From Liolophura sinensis (lineage: Eukaryota; Mollusca; Polyplacophora; Chitonida; Chitonidae), in contig NC_088301.1 in the NCBI RefSeq assembly GCF_032854445.1, forward strand, positions 59,780,512-59,844,511: DNA of 64,000 nucleotides, read 5' to 3'. The notes below the pieces were generated by a model. That model worked only from the letters and a program-made list of their open reading frames with translations. It made no database searches and was not told where the DNA came from. The translations under genes and the position numbers were made by a program. Below, piece after piece: positions 37,501 to 57,157 of this stretch (position 1 is the first letter of the stretch; each line of letters starts with the position of its first letter).

Positions 37501-40500
37501 TTTGCACACCTGTTTCTCTACCTGTATTCTAGCTGTTGTTAATATGCTAGGGTGATGAGTTTGTCTTCAGAGAGAGTTGGGGAGAACAAATGATCAAGTG
37601 CAGCCATCCAGTGCTGTGTGTGCTAGATTGGAAGACATCAGATATCATGGTCTTGGAGGGCATTCCAGATGATCTCTCACCTGGTCAGGTGTGTTAATGA
37701 ATAATCAATTGGCAATTAAGAACAAACTGGCATTTTCAATACCGATACATTATCATTAATGTCATATGTTTGGAAATTTCTTCATTTTCGAAATACTTAC
37801 ATACTTCAATAGATTTTTGTTCATGAAAACAAAAGACATTTTTCATGATACAAAGTTGTGACATGTGACTGTCTTACTTATCTATGGCTTTTCATAAGGC
37901 TTTAATTTTTGTGTATAGACACACATAAGTTACTATATTAAATTTCAACCTAATTAGAATTATTTCATCTAGCACAGAAAATAATTCCTAATTCTGCAAA
38001 GTGATATGTTTGTTTTCGCTCATGTGACCCAGTGTTTGGCGAGGTTTCGGTAAGTATTTTCATTCGAGCTGAATTTCAGGAAAGTTTCGGACACAGTACC
38101 GGCTTAATTATTCCCTGTACACAGGCCTACTTTGAATTGTGCTTTCCCACAAGCGTTGTGCTTTGTCCCTTGGTGTCTGTATTGTTTGAAAGAATTTTCT
38201 GTATGTGTTAGAGCTATAATTTTAATAGCTGAGTTTATTATTGAGGCAGATTAATACTATTTTCTGTATTGGTGGAGATTAAGTTTGGAGGAGGATGTGA
38301 ATTATGGTCTGTGAAATTTGAAATTATATTCAGTATAGGTTGAAACTAATTTAAAGGCAGGTAGAAATTCCTAAAAAATACAACTTAATTTAAATTATAT
38401 GAAAAAAATTCGTTTCAATTTCACAATTTCAAATTTTATTATATATCCCCTAAAACCCATTGTACTTATTTCACAGCTTAGTTCAAGTCATTTTATCATT
38501 ATTTCTATACATGATATAACATAGTAACTTGTGTATGTCCAGTTTTAGGAGGTGTCTGTGGCTGAGTGGTTAGTGTGGAAGCACAGCACAATAACCTAAC
38601 ACCATTGCAACAGGATGTATGTCCAGTGCAGCTGTGAGTTCAAGTTCAGATCCTGCTGGCTTCCTCTCCAGTTATGTGGACGATCTTCCAGCAACTTGCA
38701 GACCATCAGTGTCTGCCAAACCTAATGCTAGCTGCTGTTTTATAAGTGAAATATTCTTGAGTATGAAATAAATAAATGAATGAAATGTTATGTTGTACCC
38801 ACCTGTGTTGTACTTCAGGCTGTGTGGGCCCCAGGTGACCAGGCTGTGGCATTTGTGGGCTGGTGTCATGATCCCTGGAGACTCGGCCTCACCTACTGTG
38901 TACAGAGAAAGTAAGTCACTTGTGTTTGAATGGTCCCTGGTCACTTGTAGGTGTGCCTGTGGTAAATCGTCCCAAGTCACTTGTAGGTGTATCTGTGGTA
39001 ACTTGTCCCTGGTCACTTGTAGGTGTGTCTGTGGTAACTTGTACTTGGTCACTTGTAGGTGTATCTGTGGTAACTTGTCCCTGGTCACTTGTAGGTGTGT
39101 CTGTGGTAACTTGTCCCTGGTCACTTGTAGGTGTGTCTGTGGTAACTTGTCCCTGGTCACTTGTAGGTGTGTCTGTGGTAACTTGTCCTTGGTCACTTGT
39201 AGGAGTGTCTGTGGTAACTTGTCCCTGGTCACTTGTAGGTGTGTCTGTGGTAACTTGTCTCAGGTCACTTGTAGGTGTGTCTGTGGTAACTTGTCCCTGG
39301 TCACTTGTAGGTGTGTCTGTGGTAACTTGTCCCTGGTCACTTGTAGGTGTGTCTATGGTAACTTGTCCCTGGTCACTTGTAGGTGTGTCTGTGGTAACTT
39401 GTCCCTGGTCACTTGTAGGTGTGCCTGTGGTAACTTGTTCCTGGTCACTTGTAGGTGTGTCTGTGGTAACTTGTCCCTGGTCACTTGTAGGTGTGTCTGT
39501 GGTAACTTGTCCCTGGTCACTTGTAGGTGTGTCTGTGATAACTTGTCCCTGGTCACGTGTAGGTGTGTCTGTGGTAACTTGTTCCTGGTCACGTGTAGGT
39601 GTGCCTGTGGTAACTTGTCCCTGGTGACTTGTAGGTGTGTCTGTGGTAACTTGTCCCCGGTCCATGTAGGTGTGTCTGTGGTAACTTGTCCCTGGTCACT
39701 TGTAGGTGTGTCTGTGGTAACTTGTCCCTGGTCCATGTAGGTGTGTCTGTGGTAACTTGTCCCTGGTCACTTGTAGGTGTGTCTGTGGTAACTTGTCCCT
39801 GGTCACATGTAGGTGTGTCTGTGATAACTTGTCCCTGGTCCCTTGTAGGTGTGTCTGTGGTAACGTGTCCCTGGTCACTTGTAGGTGTGTCTGTGGTAAC
39901 TTGTCCCTGGTCACTTGTAGGTGTGTCTGTGATAACTTGTCCCTGGTCACTTGTAGGTGTGTCTGTGATAACTTGTCCCTGGTCACTTGTAGGTGTGTCT
40001 GTGGTAACTTGTCCCTGGTCACTTGTAGGTGTGTCTGTGGTAACTTGTCCCTGGACACTTGTAGGAGTGTCTGTGGTAACTTGTCCCTGGTCACTTGTAG
40101 GTGTGTCTGTGGTAACTTGTCCCTGGTCACTTGTAGGTGTGTCTGTGGTAACTTGTCCTTGGTCACTTGTAGGTGTGTCTGTGGTAACTTGTCCCTGGTC
40201 ACTTGTAGGTGTGTCTGTGGTAACTTGTCCCTGGTCACTTGTAGGTGTGTCTGTGGTAACTTGTCCTTGGTCACTTGTAGGTGTGTCTGTGGTAACTTGT
40301 CCCTGGTCACTTGTAGGTGTGTCTGTGGTAACTTGTCCCTGGTCACTTGTAGGTGTGTCTGTGGTAACTTGTCCCTGGTCACTTGTAGGAGTGTCTGTGG
40401 TAACTTGTCTCAGGTCACTTGTAGGTGTGTCTGTGGTAACTTGTTCCTGGTCACTTGTAGGTGTGCCTGTGGTAACTTGTCCTTGGTCACTTGTAGGTGT

Positions 40501-43500
40501 GTCTGTGGTAACTTGTCCCTGGTCCATGTAGGTGTGTCTGTGATAACTTGTCCCTGGTCACTTGTAGGTGTGTCTGTGGTAACTTGTCCCTGGTCACTTG
40601 TAAGTGTGTCTGTGGTAACTTGTCCCTGGTCACTTGTAGGTGTATCTGTGGTAACTTGTCCCTGGTCACTTGTAGGTGTGTCTGTGGTAACTTGTCCCTG
40701 GTCACTTGTAGGAGTGTCTGTGGTAACTTGTCTCAGGTCACTTGTAGGTGTGTCTGTGGTAACTTGTCCGTGGTCACTTGTAGGTGTGTCTGTGGTAACT
40801 TGTCCCTGGTCACTTGTAGGTGTGTCTGTGATAACTTGTCCCTGGTCACTTGTAGGTGTGTCTGTGGTAACTTGTCTCAGGTCACTTGTAGGTGTGTCTG
40901 TGGTAACTTGTCCCTGGTCACTTGTAGGTGTGTCTGTGGTAACTTGTCCCTGGTCACTTGTAGGTGTGTCTGTGGTAACTTGTCCCTGGTCACTTGTAGG
41001 AGTGTCTGTGGTAACTTGTCTCAGGTCACTTGTAGGTGTGTCTGTGGTAACTTGTCCCTGGTCACTTGTAGGAGTGTCTGTGGTAACTTGTCTCAGGTCA
41101 CTTGTAGGTGTGTCTGTGGTAACTTGTCCCTGGTCACTTGTAGGTGTGTCTGTGGTAACTTGTCTCAGGTCACTTGTAGGTGTGTCTGTGGTAACTTGTC
41201 CCTGGTCACTTGTAGGTGTGCCTGTGGTAACTTGTCCCTGGTCACTTGTAGGTGTGCCTGTGGTAACTTGTCCCTGGTCCATGTAGGTGTGTCTGTGGTA
41301 ACTTGTCCCTGGTCACTTGTAGGGTGTGTCTGTGGTAACTTGTCCCTGGTCACTTGTAGGTGTGTCTGTGATAACTTGTCCCTGGTCACTTGTAGGTGTG
41401 TCTGTGGTAACTTGTCTCAGGTCACTTGTAGGTGTGTCTGTGGTAACTTGTCCCTGGTCACTTGTAGGTGTGTCTGTGGTAACTTGTCCCTGGTCACTTG
41501 TAGGTGTGTCTGTGGTAACTTGTCCCTGGTCACTTGTAGGTGTGTCTGTGGTAACTTGTCCCTGGTCACTTGTAGGAGTGTCTGTGGTAACTTGTCCCTG
41601 GTCACTTGTAGGAGTGTCTGTGGTAACTTGTCTCAGGTCACTTGTAGGTGTGTCTGTGGTAACTTGTCCCTGGTCACTTGTAGGTGTGTCTGTGGTAACT
41701 TGTCTCAGGTCACTTGTAGGTGTGTCTGTGGTAACTTGTCCCTGGTCACTTGTAGGTGTGTCTGTGATAACTTGTCTCAGGTCACTTGTAGCGTGTCTGT
41801 GGTAACTTGTTCCTGATCACTTGTAGGTGTGTCTGTGGTATCTTGTCTCAGGTCACTTGTAGGTGTGTCTGTGGTAACTTGTCCTGGTCACTTGTAGGTG
41901 TGTCTGTGGTAACTTGTCCCTGGTCACTTGTAGGTGTGTCTGTGGTATCTTGTCTCAGGTCACTTGTAGGTGTGTCTGTGGTAACTTGTCCCTGGTCACT
42001 TGTAGGTGTGTCTGTGGTATCTTGTCTCAGGTCACTTGTAGGTGTGTCTGTGGTAACTTGTCCCTGGTCACTTGTAGGTGTGTTTCCCTATAGGCATGAC
42101 AGATCTACATGAATCACACCCAGCATGTATTTCAGTTGTACTTCTTCAGAAGCTAACTGTTTGTGTGCCAGTCATCATGTACATTACAACAAAGTACTAA
42201 ACATCTCTTACCTGTTAATAGAATAACATATATGCAAATGGCATGATGACACCTAATTGTCTCCAAAGGGTGGCGAGTTAAACTTCAATAAACTTCAATG
42301 ACAGAATTGTCTTTTTTGTTACCAATGGGGTGACTGGCACAGCAATTTACACAGACTTACTCCTGAAGAGGTTAAAATGGGGTAAAGTACTGGGAAAGAT
42401 AATTGTTCCCATATGTTGGTAATGCTCTAACCAGTATGATATGCTTTATTTCTGTTAGAAAGTCACCTATATCTGTTGGATCTTGGTGGAAAGTCCTGCA
42501 GTAAGTGTATAGATATATTTATTGATATGTAATTAATCATCATACAAGTAACAATGCAGTTCAGGAGTAAAGTATGTGTATAAGAAAATAAAGGTAAAAG
42601 TTAAATGGATTAAGGGGGAGAGGTGTTTGGACCAAAATGGGCATGTCCACAGTGTATAATCATACTCAATGACCCTTGTAATCCATTTCATTATGATATA
42701 CACTTAAGTACTTCTTTATCATAGTCTGCTTAATTCAGCCACAGATTTGCAGATGTATTAGTGTGTCCCTTCCCATTGTTATCCCCGTTGTTTATTTTCT
42801 TGTGTTATAAGAGAAGCTTTCTGCAGACAACTGGGCATGTCGTAGTCCAAGGAACAGTCCTGACCATTCTAAGTTAATCTACCTTCAGGTTAAGACCGCC
42901 TTCACCCATTATCAGTGTAGCAGACTAGTCATGGTAAGCATGCCTCATGTCTACAGCTGTGTTCTGAACAATGTAATACACTCAGTAGAGAACGATTACC
43001 TTAATACATCCCATTAATGTCTAGTAAGTGTGAAAGCAGAGCACCACATTACCTTGGTTCTATTCCACACCTAAATCATTAAACAGGTAGTATTAACATG
43101 TTAATGTGAAATCTTTCCCACATTTTAGGTAAATCAAACTTTTGTTTAAGTATGATCAGCAATACATTGAAAAAATTGTACACGTATTAAGAAAATTACA
43201 GGTACGTCACTGTTCATATTAATGTCCAAAGGAATTGTATTATCTGCCTGTCAAATCTCTTCATCTATATTTATTTATTTTATTTATTTTGATTGGTATT
43301 TCAGGCTGTACTCAAGAATATTTCACTTATACGACTGCAGCATCATTATGGTGGGGGGGAAACTGGGCAGAGGCCCGGGGGAAACCACGACCATCCGCAG
43401 GTTGCTGAGCCACGGAGGCCCCCTCTTCATCTATATTCAGATTTATATTCAGAAAAACTAAGTTTCTATTTAAACTGAGGTTGTTGTAATCAAATTTTTG

Positions 43501-46500
43501 GAAACTTGAACACTGTAATGTAAAGTTTCACCGAGGAATTCCAAATTTAGTACAAGACCACAGTTGGATGAAGTATTTTCAAGTTGACCGGGCTGAGTAG
43601 ATCAGATTTGTGGTGCTTAAAGACACTGACTAAAAATAGGAAGTTTTATAAGATTTGCACGTAAAGAGCTGTTTAAAACTCTGGGAGTACTCACTTCTTA
43701 TTGAATCATTGTTGCCACTCTTTGCATTCATCTATCAAAATTTGTCTTTCAAATATTTCCAGAGATAAAGACAGTTTATATATCTATTTTATTTGGAGAT
43801 GTCTTTGGATTTTTTGTTGTATGTTTCTTTCTTCCAGTTTGACTGGAAAACTCAGAAGAATACAGTCGTTGTGGATATTGTAAACAGTAATAAAGGTAAA
43901 GAGATAGGATTGTGTGACAGAGATCATTTTTCTTTATGATGATTTTATTAAATTCCCTAAATAGTAAATCACTGGAGAAATTTTTTCATACAGCTAGTCA
44001 CAATCATATAGGTCACAGTCACAGTGAAAATCATATAACTCACTGTCACAGTCACAGTCATATAAGTGAAAAATTCTTCATTATTGCATTAAACAACAAT
44101 TAAATAAAGTCTGGCGTGTACGTATAGATATGTTGAGGCCTGTGATCTTGGTCTCAAACACCACTCAGTCATATTGGATATGATCTGAACAAGTTTCAGG
44201 AGACCAAGACAAGAATGGAGAAGACTCAAAATAGATTGAAAACTTTCAAGACATCCTTCTGCACGAAGTCTTGTTGGCCTACATATTCTGTTGATCTGTT
44301 CTTGTTCTAGATAAAGTGTTCCAGGGTCTTTTCCTAATCCAGCTTCCATCCAGGTGTTGGTGTGCTGACAGTAAAAGAGTACTTCTGGACTCCTTCACCA
44401 GGAGCAATAAGGTAATAAAAACAGCTTCCGTCCAGGTGATAGGGTGCTGACAATAAGAGCAGTCCTAGACTCCTTCACCAAGAGCAATAAGGAAAACACA
44501 ACAGCTTCTGTCCAGGTGATAATGTGCTGACAATAAGAGAGTAGTCCTAGACTCCTTCACCATAAGGTAAGCACAACATCTTTCATCCAGGTATTAGTGT
44601 GCTGATAATAAGGTATCGTTGATGTAGGAATCTTAGAACATTATTTCTTGTATGTTTATGAGTTGAGGTATTAAGAAAATTGTGCATAATTGTCAAATAA
44701 ATTTTGACTGGAATTCAAACATACAGACCAGAAGAATGATATGTTAGGCAGTTTAATACCCTCACAGGTCTTTATATGCGATGATGGTTATGCCATTGTA
44801 TCATTTGTGTAGCTGTTCACATGTGGTTGAAAGAGAACGTCTCTTTAAACTGTTCACACCTTGTGGAGGGAATATTCTGTAACTGTAACTACATGTACCT
44901 CATTTGTCCTCTCTGCCTCCAGTTTGTCTATGTTGTAAACCTGGAGAGTAAAGAAGTGACGGCACTTCCTGGAGAGGAGGCTCAGGGAGACTGGGTGGTG
45001 CATGATGTCCTTGGTAACAAGGTCATTGCTCAGTACAGCTCACTGGATACACCACCATATCTGGTAAGATGTTTTTTATCAAAGGGGTTGATGACGAATT
45101 ATTGTAAGAAGCCCATCTTAAGAAATTTTTAAGTGCACAATTTATGAAAAAAATATTTGAGAGGAGGAGACGATAGTTGTGCACATCTCTGTAAGGGATC
45201 AAAAGTTGATAAAAACATTATGATGATACAAAATATACATTTAGTAACATATTTTAATGTAATGTACAGAACTGACATCTAATATATGATGGCCATTCAA
45301 TACACAGTAACTGAAGCACATTGAGTAGTGGTGTCCTCAAACCTGTGCATATCCGGAGAGCAGCACATTGGAAGGCATCCAGTTTAGCCTTAAGGGAGAC
45401 ACATGCTGAGTCGTACGCTTCACAACAGTAATCTAAACGTGTTCGGATAAGGGCTCTATACAGAAGTAACAAACTGGTCTTATCTGCTCCCCATGATTTC
45501 CCGGAGATGTAGGGCATCATATTCAAGACCTCTTGACATTTTGTAATAATGAAATTGATATGATCAGACCAAGTGACGTGCTTGTCGAAGATCATACCCA
45601 GGTGTTTCAATTTAGAAGAGACATTAATCGCCCTGTCATTAAGATATAGCAGGGGCAAGTAGTTAGGGGTTAAACATCACACACTCTGTTTTCACGTGTG
45701 AGAACTTCAATCCCCACAACTTACTCCACTTCAGGATGTCATCAAGTCCCTGCTGGATTTACCTTGAAGCTTCAGATAGATTTCCAGAAACGCACCATAT
45801 AGCTTTATCATCTGCAAACAGTGAGCAGTCCAGTTTAGGATTAACTTCTGTAGGCAAATCATGTATTGCTATATTGAACAGTGTAGGTGAAAAGAACACT
45901 TCCCTGCAGAGTGGTCATTGGTACCATCTCTACCTATTCTTACTCTGATGGAGCGATCTGAAAAAAACTTCGTATCCAGCCCAGCATTTTTGCCACCTAT
46001 ACCCATAGCTTGCGTTTTTAATAAGGAGCCCCCCACCCCCCCACCCCTCTCCACTTCATGTCATATGCCTTTTTCTATATCTAAAAAGACTATGGAATCC
46101 ACTCTGCACTTTGGCAAGCAAGCCATTTTTATCTAAAACCAAGTTAGGGGAGTGTTTATCATTTTCTCCATAATTGGACGTTTAGGCAATAGGGACAATA
46201 CGACTGCGGAGAAGATGGGTTCTTACCAGGCTTAGCTACAGGAATAACAGTAGACTGTCTCCAGGCAAAAGGTAGCTGTATACTCATCCAAATGGAATTG
46301 TATAGTGAAAGTAAATCATTGACGCATTGGTCTGGAAGGTTCTTCACCATCGAGTACACAATACCATCTTCACCTGGTGACGAGCCCTTTGGTGTATGAA
46401 GGGCCTGTCTTATCTCAAACAGAGAAAAGTCTTCATTAATTGGCATGTCGTCAAATGCAGTGTTGTCAACTTATGGTGGTGTTGTCTATATCGTCAAGAA

Positions 46501-49500
46501 GTCAGCATCCTAATTGTTTGAGCTACACATATGAAAAATTGTCAGCCAAGATGTTACACTTTTCAGGGTTTGTGACAGAATATTCATCACCACATATAAG
46601 GGTGGGAACATGGTTATTCCTATTTCTTCCACTAATTGCTCTAACCTGTGACCACACAGACTTTACTGATGTGTTTCTATAATGGAGGAGCAGTACTCGC
46701 ACCAGGGGAGCTTCACGCTGACACGCTGAGCCTCTGTCTTACACCTTTTGTATGTTATAATATCTTCCAGTGATCCTGACCGTTGACCTTTGTTCTTAGC
46801 TCGCTTTCTGTTTCTGATGGCGTCAGCGCACTCATTGCTCCACAATGGCATAGGGGGCTCTTACTATGCCACCACAAGCTGTACGAGGCCTGGACTTTCC
46901 AGCAGCAGAATTGATGGCCTTAACCTCATTGTTTGAAAACACATCAACATCTTCACTAAAAAGACTGGTTTTAAGCACCAGTTCACATTCCTTTCTGTGT
47001 GTGAACCAATCAGCTTTTTTAATTTTGCATCAAGGGCGATAACCTTGATGGTTAGTGTGAGGGCAGACTCCAAAAGTAGTAATAATTGGAAATTGGTCAC
47101 TATCACAAGTCATTCGAACACAAACTGAGGTCTACTGCTGACAAATTTCCGGGGCGGATGTCCAGTCGATTGCCCAACCCGTTAATCAGAACAACAAGAT
47201 TATTTTCCTCGGTAAACTCACAACTGCTTTACCACTGTCACCATTATGAGAGCAGCCCCACACCTTGTGATGGAAATAAAATCCCCACAGATGATATATG
47301 ATCCCATTAAAGTGCTGTCCAGGGGAATTTAGATCGGTTAGTCGTAGCTTGTTGCGAGGGTTGTACAGATTAACAACATTAATTGGCTTCCGCGAGGACA
47401 GAGCTAACTGATAGCATTGACATTCAAAAGAATTGAATACAGGAAGCTTTACCTCAGTGTATGAAATGCCATCTTTGATGAACATAGCTAGCTCACCTCT
47501 AGGGGGAGAATTCTCTATCTGTTCTTTTCACTGAGTAGCCTGGAATAGTAAAATCCAAATGAGGTTTAAGGAATGTTTCTTGCAGACAAACTACATGTGG
47601 GAGGGTTCCCACATTGGATATATATCATTTAAATTCTTGGCCGTGGGCGCAAAAGAGACTGATATTCTGCTACAGAATTGTCAGCATCATAAACAGGGGT
47701 AACGAGACAAAATTGATACANNNNNNNNNNNNNNNNNNNNNNNNNNNNNNNNNNNNNNNNNNNNNNNNNNNNNNNNNNNNNNNNNNNNNNNNNNNNNNNN
47801 NNNNNNNNNNNNNNNNNNNNNNNNNNNNNNNNNNNNNNNNNNNNNNNNNNNNNNNNNNNNNNNNNNNNNNNNNNNNNNNNNNNNNNNNNNNNNNNNNNNN
47901 NNNNNNNNNNNNNNNNNNNNGATGTTGTGATGGTTGGGATAGATAAAATTTTGGGGATCGGAGGAAACACCTGACTCACGCATGCTTTTTAAAGCCTCTG
48001 CAAAGGACACCTTTTCAGTAACCTTGATGCACTGTGCCTTTCTTGCTTCCTTCTGCAATGGACATCCAGCGTAAACAGCACTGTGTCGGCCTCCACAATT
48101 GGCACACTTTGGCATTTCTTTATTAGGGCAGGACTCATAATCATGAGCCTGACCACAGCGTGGACGTCTTACATTACCTCTACACTCGGAGGCAATATGG
48201 TTTAGGCGTTGGCACCGGAAACAGCGCAGAACATGGGGGATGTAAGGTTTCACTGTAAACATCTCATAACCAAGCGTAATTTCTGCTGAGAGAGTGTCAG
48301 AATCAAAAGTCAACAATAGGGTATCATTACGAGAAGTGCCGTGTATTTAGTCAATTTCTGAACCTGGAAACACTTATATTTTCTCAAACAAGCTAGAACT
48401 TCCGCCTCCGTAACTTCGTCCACAACACCACAAATAAAACCTCTTGATGAAGATTTGCTTTGTAGCCGACACTTTTTATGCCTACCCAAAATATGGTCGA
48501 GATTCAGTATTTTTTAACCTGTGCCTGGTTTGAGCATGAAACAAGGTAATCTTTGAACTGAATCTTTAAGATTAAGATATTTTATGTTGCCCACTGCCTT
48601 CTGTAAAGCCCAGCTGAATTTTATGGGGTTTACAATTGGGGTCTCGTCTACTGCGGCCATAATCACATTTAAATTCTTTACCTGAGGATCGTGGCTGTTT
48701 ACAGCCTGGGCTCTTTTCCATACTAATAGAGATTAACCTAATAAGATATAAATTCCTAAATAGTGTTTTAGCCTTATTCTAAGTAAGACTTAGTTGTGTT
48801 TGTTTACGGGGATAACAACAACAACAATGTAAATACACACAATAATCTAGGAATAATTGAAATATACAGGCGATTTAACACAAAATAACTGCCCACGGAG
48901 AGACAATAACATCCATATACATACATACAGGAGACAATTTTGTATATAGGTGAATGAAAAGGTAATACTAAACTGATCAGACCATTAAAAAACTACCTCC
49001 AAAACAATAGTCCAGTTTTTTTTTTTCTTTACATTGAATTTTTTGACGGGATATACGGAGCACTTTGATGAAGTTGGATGCCATTGATGTGTAAACTACG
49101 TTGATTGTAACCTTTGTATGAAATTATTATCACGGTTACTATTGTAACATCTACTCATGCACAAAAACAGCTACTTAAAAAGCAAATACAATATATCAGA
49201 TTATTTGGCGTAATTGACACCAACATTGTGAACTAAATCCTGCCATAGAAAAGATGAACATTTGACAGCTTTATTCAGTGCTAACAAATTTGGACATAGA
49301 TATCAATGGTTTTTCCCTTGATGCTCACTTTACAGAAGGTATTCCTTGATTATTTAATAGTACCCATCATATCAGGAGATTCAAGAAGACAGAATTGTAA
49401 AATTTGTCACACCAGTTATTAAAGGAAACTTTGTTTTGCTTTTTTCTTGTAGCTGTGCTAAATTGGCTTCTTTGAATCCACTCTTTATCTTGAGTAGTTG

Positions 49501-52500
49501 AAGGTTATGGGCCATATTCTGTGTATCTTTTATTCCAGGTCAATGTTGATATTCTGTATATCTCTTGATTTTGTTCCAGGTCAACGGTGATATTCTGTAT
49601 ATCTCTTCATTTTGTTCCAGGTCATTGGTGATATTCTGTATATCTCTTCGTTTTGTTCCATGCCAGCAGTGACATTCTGTATATCTCTTTATTTTGTTTT
49701 AGGTCAATGGTGATATTCTGTATATCTCTTTATTTTGTTCCATGTCAATGGTGATATTCTGTATATCTCTTATTTTGGTCTAGGTCAGTGGTGATATTCT
49801 GTATATCTCTTATTTTGTTCTAGGTCACCGGTGATATTCCGTGTATCTCTTTGTTTTGTTCCCAGTCAACAGTGATATTCTGTATATCTCGTCATTTTGT
49901 TCTAGGCCAATGGTGATATTCTGTATATATCCTATTTTGTTCCAGGTTGTGGGTGATAAATTGTATATCACTTGGTCTTTTTCCAGGTTATGTGTGATAT
50001 TCTGTATATCTCTTCATTATGTTCCAGGTTATGTGTGATATTCTGTATATCTCTTTGTTTTGTTCGAGCTTATGGCGAATATCCTGTATATTTCTTTATT
50101 TTGTTTCAGGTCAGTGGTGATATTCATTGTATCTCTTATTTTGTTCCAGGTCAACAGTGATATTCTGTATTTCTCTTCGTATTGTTCCAGGCCAAAGGGT
50201 GATATTCTGTATGTCTCCTTTTTTAGTTCCAGGTTATGTGTGGTATTACGTATATCTCTTCATTTTGGTCCAGGTTATGGAGAATATTCTGTTTATCTCT
50301 TTATGTTGTTCCGGGTCAATGGTGATATTTTGTATATCTCTTTATTTTGTTCCAGATCAACAGTGATATTATGTATGTTCCTTCATTTTGTTCCAGGCCA
50401 AGAGTGATATTCTGTATATCTCTTCATTTTGTTCCAGGCCAAGAGTGATATTCTGTATATCTCTTCATTTTGTTCCAGGCCAAGAGTGATATTCTGTATA
50501 TCTCTTTATTTTGTTCCAGGCCAAGAGTGATATTCTGTATATCTCTTCATTTTGTTCCAGGCCAAGAGTGATATTCTGTATATCTCTTCATTTTGTTCCA
50601 GGCCAAGAGTGATATTCTGTATATCTCTTTATTTTGTTCCAGGTTATGCATGATATTCTGTACATCGCTTCGTTTTGTTCCAGGTTATGGGGGATATTCC
50701 TCCTGCAGGCCAGGAAAGCTCCATCAAATGGAACAAGCTGTCCCAATCTGTTAAGTTGTCGGAGATCACATGGAAGATCATAAAGTTTAACCCAGCACAT
50801 GATAACGAAAATGAGAAGTTCCGTGAGTAAATATAAAAATTATGAAACTTAAAACAGGAGTTATTTATAGTTTCGTCATAAAGGGTTTGTTGTCCTGGAT
50901 TATTGTGCTTCAAAATCACCCACATCCTGGATGTTTGGGTGAGTGCTGTATTATCTCTGGTGTCTTCAGTTTGGTGGGTGGGAGGGGGTGTTGTGCCTGG
51001 TGTCTAGCATGTTGTGTGGGTGGGAGTTGTCTTAAGCATATTAAGTGTATGAAATGTCATGTCTGGTGTCTTCAGTGTGTTGTTTTGATGGGTGGGGTGT
51101 CATGTCTGTTATTTTATGGGTAGGAGGCTGTCATGTCTGGTGATTACAATATGTTTTGTGGGTGAAGAGTCATACTTGGTGTCTTAAGCAGGTTGTTGTG
51201 GTGGGTGGGATGTCATTTACGGCATCTTCAACGAGTTGTTTGAGTGAGTGGAATGTCATGTTTGATGTTGGGTGGGGCAAGGGTGTCATGCCTGATGTTT
51301 AGCATGGTGTGTGGATGGGAAGGGTATTTTGTGTGGTTTTTTAAGCATATGCTGTGAATGAATGCAGGATTATACGATGGAAAGCATACAAATACACAAT
51401 TAAAAGACCAAACTTTTCATTTCATGTCTCTCATTTCTCATAATTTCAGCTGATGTGGATTATGAAGGTATCCTTGTTCTTCCTACTGGATCAAAGCAGG
51501 AAGCCTTACCTCTGGTTGTATTTCCTCATGGTAAGTGGATTTCAAAAGATATGCACAACCAAAAATAAGGAAGTAACATTTGTTACATAAATTTTTGGTG
51601 TATGTTTTGGTCCAAAAACTGGGTTTATTTTGTCAAGCAATAATTGAAAATAACTGTTTAACATTACGTACTCTTACACAGAACATTTTTTTGTATGGGT
51701 ATTTGCCCAGAGAAATTATCACATTGAGCAAATGTCATTTTCCTCGAGGGAATCAATACATCAAGCTCTGCTGGAAAAACCTGTTTGAATACTGTAAATG
51801 TAGAAATTGGTCCAAGGGAACATAAACAGTAATCCGATGTAAACCTATGTGGTAAACCTATGTAGTTTGTGATGGCACCATGTGTAATGGATAACATCTT
51901 ATAACTAATGACGAGCTCGATTGGGTGATGAGCTAGATTGAGCACCTCAGCCCCAGGTGGTAACTGTTAGGCCCTACATATATTTCAATGAACATGATCA
52001 GTGTTACCCTCTGAATATGCTTGAGTATGTATAAATGGTATTGTTATGAAAACCCCGGGTTTTTTGGAGGGGGGGGGGGCATTCATACATGTGGTTGATT
52101 GTATCTTATCTTGTTATACTGGCCAGTGTGTAAATGAAATACTTTGTCATTGAAAAACAATGTAATACATGTAAATCAATTAAATTGAATCATTGGATCA
52201 ATAATTTGATAAATGACCAACAGATTGCCATGTTTGAAACCAGCTCCTGACATAGTATAACTTATGTCAGTAGGTTTGTTTTTTCAGCTCCATGGCCATG
52301 GGTGTGGTTTTCTCACTATAGCCTTTGTCCTGTGTCTTTCACCTGCCAACCTGAGCACTGTTTTAGAAGTTGATTACAGTCGTAGGAATGTATGCCATAA
52401 AACCATATTTAAACATATAAGCAAATCATATACCTTGTGAAAATAAGTTCTTCCAGTTTTAAAAACTGTCACTGTAATGTAGCGTTTTGGTTGATTTGCA

Positions 52501-55500
52501 GGTGGACCTCATACCTGTTTTTCTTCTGGGTTTGCTTTGTACTTCTCTCTGCTGGCTAGGTGTGGATTTGCAGTTTTGCTGGGTAAGGAGTTATCTGAAA
52601 AGCAAAATGTTCACTGAAGAATTACAATTCAGTTTTTGTTAAATTCCAGGATTCACCTGCTGCACAGATTCACTTTGCATGAGGGTTTATATTCTTCTGC
52701 CCTGTACAAGCATATCTATGTTTTTTCCAGTTAACTACAGAGGCTCAGTTGGATTTGGCCAGGATGGAATTGTATCGTTGGTGGGAAATATTGGGAAGCA
52801 AGATGTACAGGATGTCCAGGTAAATGTTTGATGTTTTAATGACTTTATGATTTTGACCCTAGATATTTTGGAGTTGAAACCTGTAACTGCAGGTGTACAG
52901 TAGTGTGACCTCAGACATACAATTTTGAATCTTGGAGAACCTGGATACACTTACTTTAAATTCCGTTAATGATTATTAAATCTTTGTAACATAGACAGTA
53001 GAACTGCATTCAGCCTCATGTTCACAAAAGAACACTATCAGTAGTGGTAGAGCCAGTGTGAATGTAGTTCCTCAAGCAGATTGCATATGGGCATCAGGGG
53101 CTTATTTTGTAAAGCATTCAAATCCTGCGACTGTTGTGGCTTCTTGACAATGTACAGTGCTCACGGACAGCCTTACATTACATTAAATTGGCCTTCACAT
53201 TGTCTTAATTGTCTCCTTGTTGTACAGTCAGCTACTCTGCATGTGTTGAAGTCGGACTTTCTTGATAAAGAGAAAGTCGTTGTCATGGGAGGATCTCATG
53301 GGGGGTTTCTAACAACTCACCTGATTGGCCACTACCCTGTAAGTCTTGGTCCATATTGTGTATCATAATAATAATGTAAAAGTAATAGAGTTTAAGTTTC
53401 AATAGTGATGAAATATTCAGTAAATGCAACTACTATTACAAGATACTGTCAGTGTGAGAATTGATAAATATCATCATTTGACTTTTGCTGGTCTTTATTT
53501 AATAGGTAAATTATTTCTTATTGTTTTAAACAACAAAACAAAAAATTTATGAAAATAATAAATTTATAATGTAGTGTTTTCTTTGCATCATGACTTTGGT
53601 AGCAAGGAATAACAGTACATGAAGGCACCTCTCTAAATTTGGATTAGATAGTAAGGTTTTGTGGCTACTTATGTTTACTATTTCAGGGCTTTTATAAAGC
53701 AGCTGTAGCCAGGAATCCTGTAACTAACTTAGTAGGTAAGTTACTTTATAGGATCATTCTGTTTTATATACTAACGTATTCAGGAGAGAATTTTAAGGCA
53801 GTTATGCTGGGCATTATTCCAGCGTGTCAAAAAATGATGCGTTTAGGAGGAATTGAACATCCTGTCAAGCTATTTCTCTTCCAAACATTTTATGTAATGT
53901 CAGACTACATGGTCATGGCCGACATTTCACATAAAGACATAAATGTAACTTTACACATTAAATAGTCATTTTGCATTAAACAGGTGACAGAATAATGATT
54001 TTTTCTGAGTGTATGAAAAAAATTATTGTTACATATCTGTTAAAACTGCTTTCTTTGGTTGTTTATTTTTAGCAATGCTTGGGTCCTCTGATATTCCAGA
54101 TTGGTAAGTGATTTTTTTAATCTAGTTTATTCTTTAATATTAATTGCAGGAAAGCTGTCCTGTGATTCACTAGATCTGTAAGTTGGCTCAAATGTTTCAC
54201 TCTGAATAAAAGAAATTGAAAAAGTCAGTTGGATAAAAGTGATGAAAGAGAAAGAAAAAAAAAACCACATAGAAATTGTAGTGTAGTTTCCTGTAACAGA
54301 ATAAACTGAGATTTTTGCAAGGTTTTTGATTTCTAAAAAAAATTACACTCGTTCTCTGTGGTCTTCTTATTAACATGTTCACACCTCCTTTGCAGGATAT
54401 ATGTGGAATGTGGTTATGAGTTTGACTTTGTCAATTTGCCAAATCCTGATATGTACAAGACGTTCTGGTCAAAGTCTCCTATCAGATATATTGATCAGGT
54501 GAGTAGTTGGAAAGTAAAGGTGAAACCAATGAAAATACTCACCAAATTAACCCCTCTTAGCAAATGCTCTTGTTCTTACTGATAACTGTAACGGTCTTTC
54601 ACTTCCTGTTTGTTTACCCACCTCACACACACTGAAGAGTTACAAAATACATGTAGCAATGCAGGATTATGCTGGAGGATGCAGTCCACGCAAAGTGATG
54701 AGAGCACTCAGATGTTTGTACATGTACTTGGTGTATGAAAGTAAATGTTGGAAAGTCAAGTCAAGTATTTGTATTCAGTGATTAGGAAAAGTAACACTTA
54801 CTTTGCCCACTTGTATAATAATTACAATGTATATTACAAATATTTTATGTAATTGCTACAAAAATACCAATTTATACCTTCAGATGGAATGTGCTATGTG
54901 GTTTAAATAGGGTACCTTTCATTAGCTAGGAAACAGGAGGTGCAGGTACAGATTCGAGCTTTGAATCCGAATTTGTGGATTCCCCTGCTCTCAATGCGTG
55001 TGGGGTAAGAAGCAGCCAATGAACTGTCTAACGCTTGGTGAAAACCACTTGTATTCCACTAATACTTCATGTGGGTAAATTTGTTAGTAACTTGCCAAAG
55101 ATCAGTGGTTTACCCTGGGCACTAGTCTTTCCTCCACTGCAGTTGGGAAGGGGTTTACTCTGGGCACTAGGCTTTCCTCCACTGCAGATGGGAAGGGGTT
55201 TACCCTGGGCACTAGGCTTTCCTCCACTGCAGATGGGAAAGGGTTTACCCTGGGCACTAGGCTTTCCTCCACTGCAGATGGGAATGGGTTTACCCTGGGC
55301 ACTAGGCTTTCCTCCACTGCAGATGGGAATGGGTTTACCCTGGGCACTAGGCTTTCCTCCACTGCAGATGGGAAAGGGTTTACCCTGGGCACTAGGCTTT
55401 CCTCCACTGCAGATGGGAATGGGTTTACCCTGGGCACTAGGCTTTCCTCCACTGCAGATGGGAAGGGGTTTACCCTGGGCACTAGGCTTTCCTCCACTGC

Positions 55501-57157
55501 AGATGGGAAGGGGTTTGCCCTGGGCACTAGGCTTTCCTCCACTGCAGGTGGGAATGGGTTTACCCTGGGCACTAGGCTTTCCTCCACTGCAGGTGGGAAG
55601 GGGTTTACCCTGGGCACTAGGCTTTCCTCCACTGCAGATGGGAAGGGGTTTCTCCTAAATTCACTAAACAGTGTGGCTTCCATGGCCATATTTATTTTCT
55701 GTTTGTTAAGTTTGATAATGTTTCAACCCTACAAAACATGTATTTACAAACAGAAAATGTATTTCATTGTCTATGTTAGACAGGTGACATTGACCCTAAT
55801 AGTGTAGTTTAAGGTTAGGTGTCAGGTCTGGCATGGGCAGTGCTGGGTGTATCATTCAGTAATGCAGTTTGATATTCATAGTTTTGTGTTAAATCAGGTG
55901 AAGACCCCAACCATGATAATGCTTGGAGCAGAAGACAAAAGAGTCCCTCCAAAACAAGGCGAAGAATATTACCGTGCCCTCAAAGCAAGAAACATTCCTG
56001 CCAGGTGAGACTGGAAATATGTACATGTATTTTGTACTGGAATGGAATGACTAATAGAAGAGAGTTAATGATGACCACACAACAGTTAATTGGATCCACA
56101 TGACATATATTGTGTAAACTTTGTTTCTGGCTATTATTTTGTCACCATATTTTGATTTTGCAACACTCTCATACTGAAGAATGGGTATGATGAACCAGCT
56201 CATAGGAGATCAGTTTCCTGCTTCTGTGTTCATTTGGAATCTACAAAAAGAATTTATTTTATGCATACATGTACTCTGGCAAAAATTTACCTGGCTGGAG
56301 ATTTGAACTTCTGTTATTTCACTATGACAGTCTTTCACAATGACCTTCACATTAGCAATGACAGTCACGTTCACAATGACTTTCTCATTTATATTGACTT
56401 TGACACTTACAGTGACAATCTTTCACAATGACCTTCACATTAGCAATGACAGTCACGTTCACAATGACTTTCTCATTTATATTGACTTTGACACTCACAG
56501 TGACAATCTTTCACAATGACCTTCACATTAGCAATGACAGTCACGTTCACAATGACTTTCTCATTTATATTGACTTTGACACTCACAGTGACAATCTTTC
56601 ACAATGACCTTCACATTAACAGTGTCAATCACACTCACAATGACTTTCACATTAACAGTGCCAATCACACTCACAATGACTTTCACATTAACAGTGCCAA
56701 TCACACTCACAATGACTTTCACATTAACAGTGCCAATCACACTCACAATGACTTTCACATTAACAGTGCCAATCACACTCACAATGACTTTCACATTAAC
56801 AGTGCCAATCACACTCACAATGACTTTCACATTAACAGTGCCAATCACACTCACAATGACTTTCACATTAACAGTGCCAATCACACTCACAATGACTTTC
56901 ACATTAACAGTGTCAATCACACTCACAATGACTTTCACATTAACAGTGTCAATCACACTCACAATGACTTTCACATTAACAGTGTCAATCACACTCACAA
57001 TGACTTTCATATTCACAATTACCTTCACATTTACAATGAATTTCATGTTCCTCTTAGACTCCTGGTGTATCCTGAAGATTGTCATCCTATCATCAAGATG
57101 GATTCTGAATCAGATGCCTTTGTCAACATCATCAGATGGTTCAGTGATCACCTCTAG
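34528..57157 (+). CDS. APEH: Acylamino-acid-releasing enzyme (acylaminoacyl-peptidase), complete, 22 exons, 712 aa
   Basis: A cytosolic S9-family serine peptidase that removes N-acylated residues from short peptides. Exons: 34528-34563, 35004-35224, 35800-35890, 36728-36806, 37071-37201, 37551-37688, 38819-38910, 42463-42500, 42812-42933, 43838-43895, 44311-44411, 44923-45063, 50684-50822, 51450-51530, 52502-52582, 52731-52819, 53228-53338, 53687-53735, 54073-54103, 54396-54498, 55898-56004 and 57058-57157. All phases match. The N-terminal beta-propeller half includes [14 protein letters not shown] and [11 protein letters not shown]. The alpha/beta-hydrolase half has the oxyanion region FPHGGPH, nucleophile Ser569 in GGSHGG, Asp657 in GAEDKRVP and His689 in DCHP. 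These are each 18 residues before human Ser587, Asp675 and His707, so the catalytic domain is collinear. Human APEH is 732 aa. Less certain points: exon 1 ([12 protein letters not shown], chosen for Kozak context, phase and GTATGT donor) and the acceptors of exons 8 and 9. Confidence 0.95.
38547..38788 (+). mobile_element. SINE copy directly upstream of APEH exon 7
   Basis: Sense-orientation copy: tRNA-like head (gtctgtggctgagtggttag), tgctggcttcctctccagtt, gaaatattcttgagtatg and an aataaataaatgaatgaa tail. It ends only about 30 bp before the exon 7 acceptor (38819). Confidence 0.85.
38932..42085 (+). repeat. 36-bp minisatellite in APEH intron 7, about 87 units
   Basis: The unit is ggtcacttgtaggtgtgtct followed by gtggtaacttgtccct. 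It starts about 20 bp after the exon 7 donor and fills most of the 3.55-kb intron. Units of 36 bp keep frame and carry few stops, so long reading frames appear on both strands ([12 protein letters not shown] on plus, [12 protein letters not shown] on minus); these are not genes. Recurrent variants include ctcaggtcac for ctggtcac, gtgataac for gtggtaac, and a 35-bp unit with ggtccatgtagg at about 39660, 39732, 40523 and 41278. Confidence 0.97.
43272..43422 (-). mobile_element. Internally deleted SINE copy with 15-bp target-site duplication in APEH intron 9
   Basis: Same family as 1061-1317, but only 151 bp long. The body jumps from ggttgctg directly to agccacggaggcccc, so about 110 bp including most of the tRNA-like head is absent. 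Flanked by exact ctcttcatctatatt copies at 43257-43271 and 43423-43437. Confidence 0.92.
44340..44613 (+). repeat. APEH exon 11 and three decayed tandem copies of it
   Basis: The 3' part of exon 11 (from the CAG at 44340 to just past its donor) recurs at about 44422-44500, 44502-44577 and, shortened, 44578-44613, at roughly 80-bp spacing. All share TCCAGGT near the start, GTGCTGA, and AATAAGG or ATAAGG at the donor end; copies 2 and 3 also share CTCCTTCACC. Only the first copy keeps the APEH frame ([19 protein letters not shown]). Copies 2 and 3 begin with TGATAG and TGATAA stops. The donor is lost in copy 2 (AAG|GAAA) but kept in copy 3 (AAG|GTAAGC) and copy 4 (AAG|GTATCG). Confidence 0.85.
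45250..48720 (-). mobile_element. Antisense non-LTR retrotransposon (LINE) remnant in APEH intron 12
   Basis: On the minus strand the element reads, from its 5' side: an ORF1-like start ([20 protein letters not shown], 48659 down, with internal stops); zinc knuckles at about 48240-48060 ([14 protein letters not shown]; a second with its first Cys replaced, [28 protein letters not shown]); a 200-N gap; an endonuclease-like stretch (47485-47300, [19 protein letters not shown] region); reverse-transcriptase pieces ([17 protein letters not shown] and [13 protein letters not shown] near 46440-46190; catalytic FADD at about 45809-45820; [15 protein letters not shown] onward at 45610-45300). Stops and frame changes show it is dead. 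CCHC-bearing ORF1 plus APE-type endonuclease fits the I/Jockey group; the exact clade is not settled. Confidence 0.88.
47721..47920. other. Assembly gap of 200 N inside the LINE
   Basis: Exactly 200 N between the zinc-knuckle region and the endonuclease part of the antisense LINE. It does not touch an APEH exon. Confidence 0.99.
49503..50683 (+). repeat. 41-bp minisatellite abutting APEH exon 13, about 28 units
   Basis: The unit is gtcaatggtgatattctgta followed by tatctctttattttgttccag. The last unit ends exactly at the splice acceptor of exon 13 (50684). The exon's own first 16 bases, GTTATGGGGGATATTC, match the start of a unit (for example gttatgtgtgatattc near 49988). Each unit therefore carries a pyrimidine-rich tttgttccag acceptor plus exon-like bases. 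Confidence 0.95.
55107..55652 (+). repeat. 45-bp minisatellite in APEH intron 20, about 12 units
   Basis: The unit is tttaccctgggcactaggct followed by ttcctccactgcagatgggaagggg. It lies between exon 20 (ends 54498) and exon 21 (starts 55898). Units are highly alike, differing mainly at aagggg/aatggg/aaaggg and at gcagatg/gcaggtg. As 45 is a multiple of 3, both strands show artefact reading frames of about 200 codons ([15 protein letters not shown]). Each unit has a ttcctccactgcag segment resembling a 3' splice site. Confidence 0.96.
56326..57040 (+). repeat. Two-stage minisatellite in APEH intron 21, ending next to exon 22
   Basis: At 56326-56600 an 88-bp-scale block (tttcacaatgaccttcacat then tagcaatgacagtcacgttc and on) occurs about three times. 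From about 56600 to 57008 a derived 36-bp unit, aatgactttcacattaacag then tgccaatcacactcac, occurs about 11 times; gccaatc units in the middle are flanked by gtcaatc units. Degenerate units continue to about 57040, only 18 bp before the exon 22 acceptor (57058). The reading frames across it ([12 protein letters not shown]) are artefacts of the unit length. Confidence 0.95.

Follow-up and report, generated by a model that had tools for sequence, protein, structure and literature searches.

Tandem arrays that repeat the boundary between an intron and an exon are known from amphioxus as "mirages". The available excerpts of two reports (PMC3087553, PMC3902484) place them in Adh3, in the globin genes BflGb6 and BflGb9, in TnC, and in PGBD5, and state that splicing is reportedly undisturbed. 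The BflGb6 mirage, in the excerpted text of the first of these reports (PMC3087553), joins the 3' end of an intron to the 5' part of exon 2 and counts 6 and 3 units in two haplotypes. In humans, excerpts of PMC2630376 describe two variants of CBS: the 844ins68 allele duplicates an intron-exon junction (its sites are called donors there), with the distal site strongly favoured and normal mRNA made, and a 31-bp VNTR (c.1444_1467+7) of 16-21 units is polymorphic in people. Tandem duplication of a stretch holding AG/GT, which multiplies splice sites, has moreover been put forward as a source of intron gain (PMC4974935, excerpted; discussed in the same part of PMC3087553). Among the matches listed from open-licence full text, no mollusc array of this kind was found by title or by the start of the abstract.

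Here, a comparable array is described in the chiton Liolophura sinensis, in a window of 64,000 nucleotides, i.e. the whole stretch of DNA that was analysed (contig NC_088301.1, positions 59,780,512 to 59,844,511 of the forward strand). A preliminary description made from the letters alone had seen in it a row of decoy 3' splice sites ahead of the real one; its individual claims are taken up below with the results that bear on them.

The 41-bp array and the exon that it enters

The gene carrying the array is APEH, which codes for the acylamino-acid-releasing enzyme, as the joined peptides of its exon pieces match chain 7px8 with an E value of 5e-151. The peptides flanking the junction 50683/50684 (19 protein letters) align without gaps to this solved APEH chain, which supports position 50684 as the true start of the exon, in agreement with the preliminary description, where it is numbered exon 13. 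The exon has one match in the genome assembly, in which no APEH paralog usable as an internal outgroup was found. The features of the locus are collected in Table 1. Within the intron that ends in the array, the stretch from about 45300 to 48750 resembles, by eye, the remnant of a retroelement and includes 200 N at 47721-47920.

Table 1. Features of APEH around the 41-bp array (positions within the window)
Feature	Position	Strand	Detail
Second exon-edge array in APEH	44340..44562	+	80-bp unit repeating an exon together with its donor; exon ends at 44411; TRF
Preceding APEH exon	44923..45063	+	donor CTG/GTAAGA, phase 0
APEH intron	45064..50683	+	5,620 nt, phase 0, array at its 3' end
Decayed outermost unit	49504..49538	+	exon-like part GTTATGGGCCATATTC, 14/16 match to exon start; exon-like from 49504
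41-bp minisatellite	49539..50683	+	28 units (40-42 bp, cut back from 50683)
Exact three-unit block of 123 bp, present twice	50397..50642	+	50397-50519 and 50520-50642, 123/123 identical
APEH exon (exon 13 of the preliminary description)	50684..50822	+	ungapped alignment to 7px8 across the junction; acceptor 13.4 bits
First 16 exon bases, last and partial array unit	50684..50699	+	in register; TRF extent and identities

TRF reports a 41-bp unit in 28.7 copies with 82% matches (49528-50699), a call that reaches 16 bases into the exon. Each unit is composed of 16 bases resembling the start of the exon and of about 25 bases that copy the acceptor and end in a pyrimidine tract and, mostly, in AG. 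The extent of the call, the cutting into units, and the register of the 16 exon bases bear out the earlier view that the units consist of a splice acceptor plus an exon start and that the array runs into the exon. The likeness to the first 16 bases of the exon varies among the units: 14 of 16 positions agree in units 10, 16, and 17 and in the decayed copy, 13 in units 1 and 26, and 6 to 12 in the others, including a GTCAA/GCCAA form that is spread across much of the array and matches the exon more poorly (down to 6/16). Ten of the 28 units served for a comparison with random 16-mers taken from 79 sampled loci (n=200,000): a best match of at least 13 positions to one of these ten occurs at a frequency of 6.5e-5, and the exon start reaches 14.

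In the one haplotype assembled, the exact 123-bp duplication suggests recent turnover within the array. Searched against the genome assembly with a method that skips very common words, 684 array bases match the array only; a dispersed repeat or a satellite borne by a transposable element was set aside on this ground, which given that skipping is not proof.

Decoy acceptors and the outcome of their use

At the 28 unit boundaries, AG lies exactly in place in 23 cases and within 1-5 nt in 3 more, and it is missing at two (49744 and 50315). The row of about 28 decoy sites foreseen in the preliminary description is real as a row, with an AG within 5 nt at 26 of the boundaries. The strength of the sites was scored with weight matrices trained on splice sites of the sampled genes (60 acceptors, 51 donors) that had themselves been picked by a generic score, and the resulting values are rough. 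On this scale, the real acceptor at 50684 reaches 13.4 bits, compared with 10.4 for the median of the 60 training acceptors; 22 decoys exceed that median, and 6 score at least as high as the real site. By this measure, the decoys of the array are comparable in strength to the real acceptor and not clearly weaker.

Branch-point signals were sought as well. Taken loosely (UNAY with a purine), a branch-like motif is present with its A at -31 for the real acceptor and at -30 or -31 for 24/28 upstream boundaries, where it falls inside the exon-derived part of the unit; the strict yUnAy motif is absent between -55 and -15 of the real acceptor, which offers only the looser UGAU. Since most units bring a weak branch-like A, a pyrimidine tract, and an AG of their own, the real acceptor is unlikely to be recognized by its strength alone. 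With 6 decoys scoring no lower than the real site, the locus is a fair test, as had been proposed, of the way in which the spliceosome settles on the last in a row of near-identical acceptors. Position, more than strength, would most likely mark the real acceptor, since no other copy adjoins the complete exon with its donor. Exon definition, an established mechanism that pairs an acceptor with the 5' splice site at the far end of the same exon, would have this effect. The real exon also holds a GGGGG run, and no GGGG occurs anywhere in the array.

Whichever of the 26 AG decoys is used, the reading frame runs into a stop codon, within the array for 24 of them and in exon 13 for the other 2, and a stop also follows from all 28 exact unit starts (28/28). 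All nine AG decoys that keep the frame stop inside the array and leave no open reading frame for an alternative isoform. No alternative protein is therefore expected, and the idea of productive alternative splicing is not supported. Splicing that depends on copy number, also proposed earlier, is unsupported and finds room only through non-productive mRNA, and the rule that every third unit alone keeps the frame is not strict, as the unit length varies from 40 to 42. The mRNAs arising from upstream acceptor choices, carrying stops, would be cleared by nonsense-mediated decay.

Recursive splicing, with the unit as a tiny intron, was also considered and set aside: the unit starts are mostly weak donors, the best of them scoring 10.3 bits at 50110 and the others at most 6.9 bits against a training median of 9.0. 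Lastly, intact bases at the two AG positions are seen in 26 and 24 units out of 28, and the mean over the 41 columns is 1006/1148 (87.6%); by this measure of column conservation, the decoy AGs are neither purged nor specially kept.

Arrays at other exon edges

The second exon-edge array of APEH is of the donor side, and at its donor (44411) one copy of the junction-crossing 32-mer was found at 27/32. Three further arrays lie near APEH exons. Beginning 22 nt past the exon end at 38910, a 36-bp unit is repeated 88 times (94% matches, TRF) over 38933-42083; the donor stretch GTAAGTCACTTGTG at that exon end resembles the adjacent unit GTCACTTGTAGGTG, but no copy of the junction-crossing 32-mer reaches 26/32, and the array is only close to the splice site. 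A 45-bp unit that includes the acceptor-like TTTCCTCCACTGCAG is repeated 12 times at 55107-55651, 247 nt upstream of the exon at 55898 and out of contact with it, and an array of 36/88-bp periods at 56325-57045 stops 12 nt short of the acceptor at 57058, which belongs to the last APEH exon found.

The wider genome was sampled at 79 loci (L001-L079) around conserved exons, drawn from 30/81 myosin, 30/132 kinesin, and 19/19 ABC matches and totalling 254,973 bases with some overlap. Arrays with a period of at least 10 are present in 46 of these loci and make up 13.6% of the bases. The published genome of this chiton (as Liolophura japonica) lists 0.08% of "simple repeat, microsatellite, RNA" and 14.04% of unclassified repeats in the excerpted text (PMC11068029), and the species name was later corrected to Liolophura sinensis (PMC12441733); the sampled arrays may sit in the unclassified part of that repeat table.

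Arrays that span a junction, checked by translation, were found at 3 of the 79 sampled myosin, kinesin, and ABC exons. The kinesin locus L036 has an array of the same kind as that of APEH, on the acceptor side of the exon EAMSINKSLS and with a 64-bp unit; it falls just below the acceptor cut of the 32-mer test and was verified by hand. Of the 8 decoys listed for it, 7 outscore the real site (8.8 or 11.5 versus 7.7), and one scores 6.9. The other two are on the donor side: the kinesin locus L049 (73 bp) carries 19 donor copies besides the real one, of which 3 equal it in score and 16 score lower, and the myosin locus L018 (66 bp) has 7 further donors equal to the real score plus 8 lower look-alikes. 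L060 was discarded as a donor-side hit because the translation puts the true donor earlier, the donor of L073 was wrongly called, and the array of L026 has only about nine bases in common with its exon.

Whether arrays prefer splice sites was judged by two counts. Copies of the junction-crossing 32-mer were found nearby for 0/72 acceptors and 3/69 donors (L018, L049, and the later rejected L060), and control 32-mers lying 640-1280 nt into the intron had a nearby copy in 10-14/72 (acceptors) and 8-15/69 (donors) cases. The array-edge test kept 74/79 acceptors and 68/79 donors, the donors of L031, L060, and L073 having been removed by hand; array edges lie within 60 nt of an exon, or inside it, in 11/68 cases, with P = 3e-4 if exons are closed to arrays and P = 0.08 if arrays may extend into them. 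A preference for splice sites, suggested by a first count, was thus not established by this fairer test. It is rather doubtful, though conceivable, that minisatellites of this chiton, and perhaps of amphioxus, arise preferentially at splice junctions through some link with transcription or splicing. Arrays of similarly strong, competing sites would then occur at one percent of all junctions in the genome or more, with the exon-proximal copy taken whatever its score.

Origin of the array and its known relatives

The array is best read as a mirage, i.e. a tandem duplication of the splice junction that would be tolerated since the exon-proximal copy stays in use, a reading to which we assign a probability of roughly 0.8 on the evidence of the sequence. 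The splice-junction origin in itself is well supported. A segment of 41 bp, comprising the last 25 bases of the intron and the first 16 of the exon, would have been tandemly duplicated, and the array would then have grown by ordinary tandem-repeat turnover, presumably in that order; the register, the exon-like outer copy, and the exact 123-bp duplication are the direct traces of duplication and turnover. The upstream copies would have turned into intron as the copy adjoining the intact exon stayed in use.

Other readings concern the likeness to the exon and its direction. Arrays are common in this genome, and an ordinary minisatellite might resemble an exon start by chance, yet the likeness lies in register at the array edge and reaches 14/16, at odds of 6.5e-5 for at least 13, so that coincidence is extremely improbable. 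Sequence identity by itself gives no direction, and the start of the exon might have derived from a pre-existing intronic minisatellite; this reversal is very unlikely, as the exon start aligns with the APEH of another animal with no gap or extra residues, and the outermost copy and unit 1 are more exon-like than the bulk of the array. The register, the outer copies, and the same arrangement in unrelated genes all argue for the direction from exon to array.

The remaining readings concern function. If the decoys were leaky, a measurable share of transcripts would use upstream acceptors and be destroyed by nonsense-mediated decay, and the length of the allele would lower APEH output with no selection on it. 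The 22 decoys above the training median and the stops met from all 26 AG decoys are in keeping with this, and the undisturbed splicing reported for amphioxus mirages (in the parts of PMC3087553 and PMC3902484 cited above) and the strong preference for the distal site in human CBS 844ins68 (same part of PMC2630376) speak against it; such leakage is rather improbable. A regulatory device kept by selection, in which the number of units tunes productive APEH splicing, could appeal to the AG retained within 5 nt in 26/28 units, yet the splice columns are conserved no better than the rest of the unit, the units were recently amplified, and similar arrays occur in unrelated genes, as a general mutational process would give. 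This device is highly unlikely, and a regulatory role of the array finds no support. Intronic minisatellites abound in this genome, in which the duplicated junction is most likely a by-product that is tolerated.

Provided that the APEH intron is spliced normally, the spliceosome skips more than 20 upstream acceptors of similar score. Exon definition can account for this behaviour, and a rule of site strength cannot. Further natural experiments, on both the donor and the acceptor sides and with varied copy number and strength, seem to be present in the chiton genome, which would make the rule of acceptor choice testable on existing RNA-seq.

The occurrence of mirages in a mollusc, in several genes, is apparently new and extends a little-known kind of array to another phylum; it suggests that mirages are not confined to cephalochordates. 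The APEH array has the minisatellite-like repeat that characterizes them (28 units of 41 bp, with one partial and one decayed copy besides), a unit that spans the boundary (16 exon-like and about 25 intron-like bases, in register), and splice signals in many copies (AG in place in 23/28 and within 5 nt in 26/28). Relative to what the excerpted reports describe, it is like the amphioxus mirages in repeating an intron-exon boundary in tandem and in having splice signals in many of the copies, and like BflGb6 in taking in the 3' end of the intron and the start of the exon; it differs in its host, a mollusc and not a cephalochordate, and in its size, with about 28 copies of 41 bp versus 6 or 3 copies of 150-160 bp in BflGb6. 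The AG/GT mode of intron gain, as set out in the excerpts, makes a new intron, whereas the APEH array lengthens an existing one at its 3' end. CBS 844ins68, as far as the excerpted source describes it, is likewise a tandem duplication of a junction, with a single extra copy in a 68-bp insertion, and the CBS VNTR, in the same text, is likewise a minisatellite laid across the edge between exon and intron, but on the donor side.
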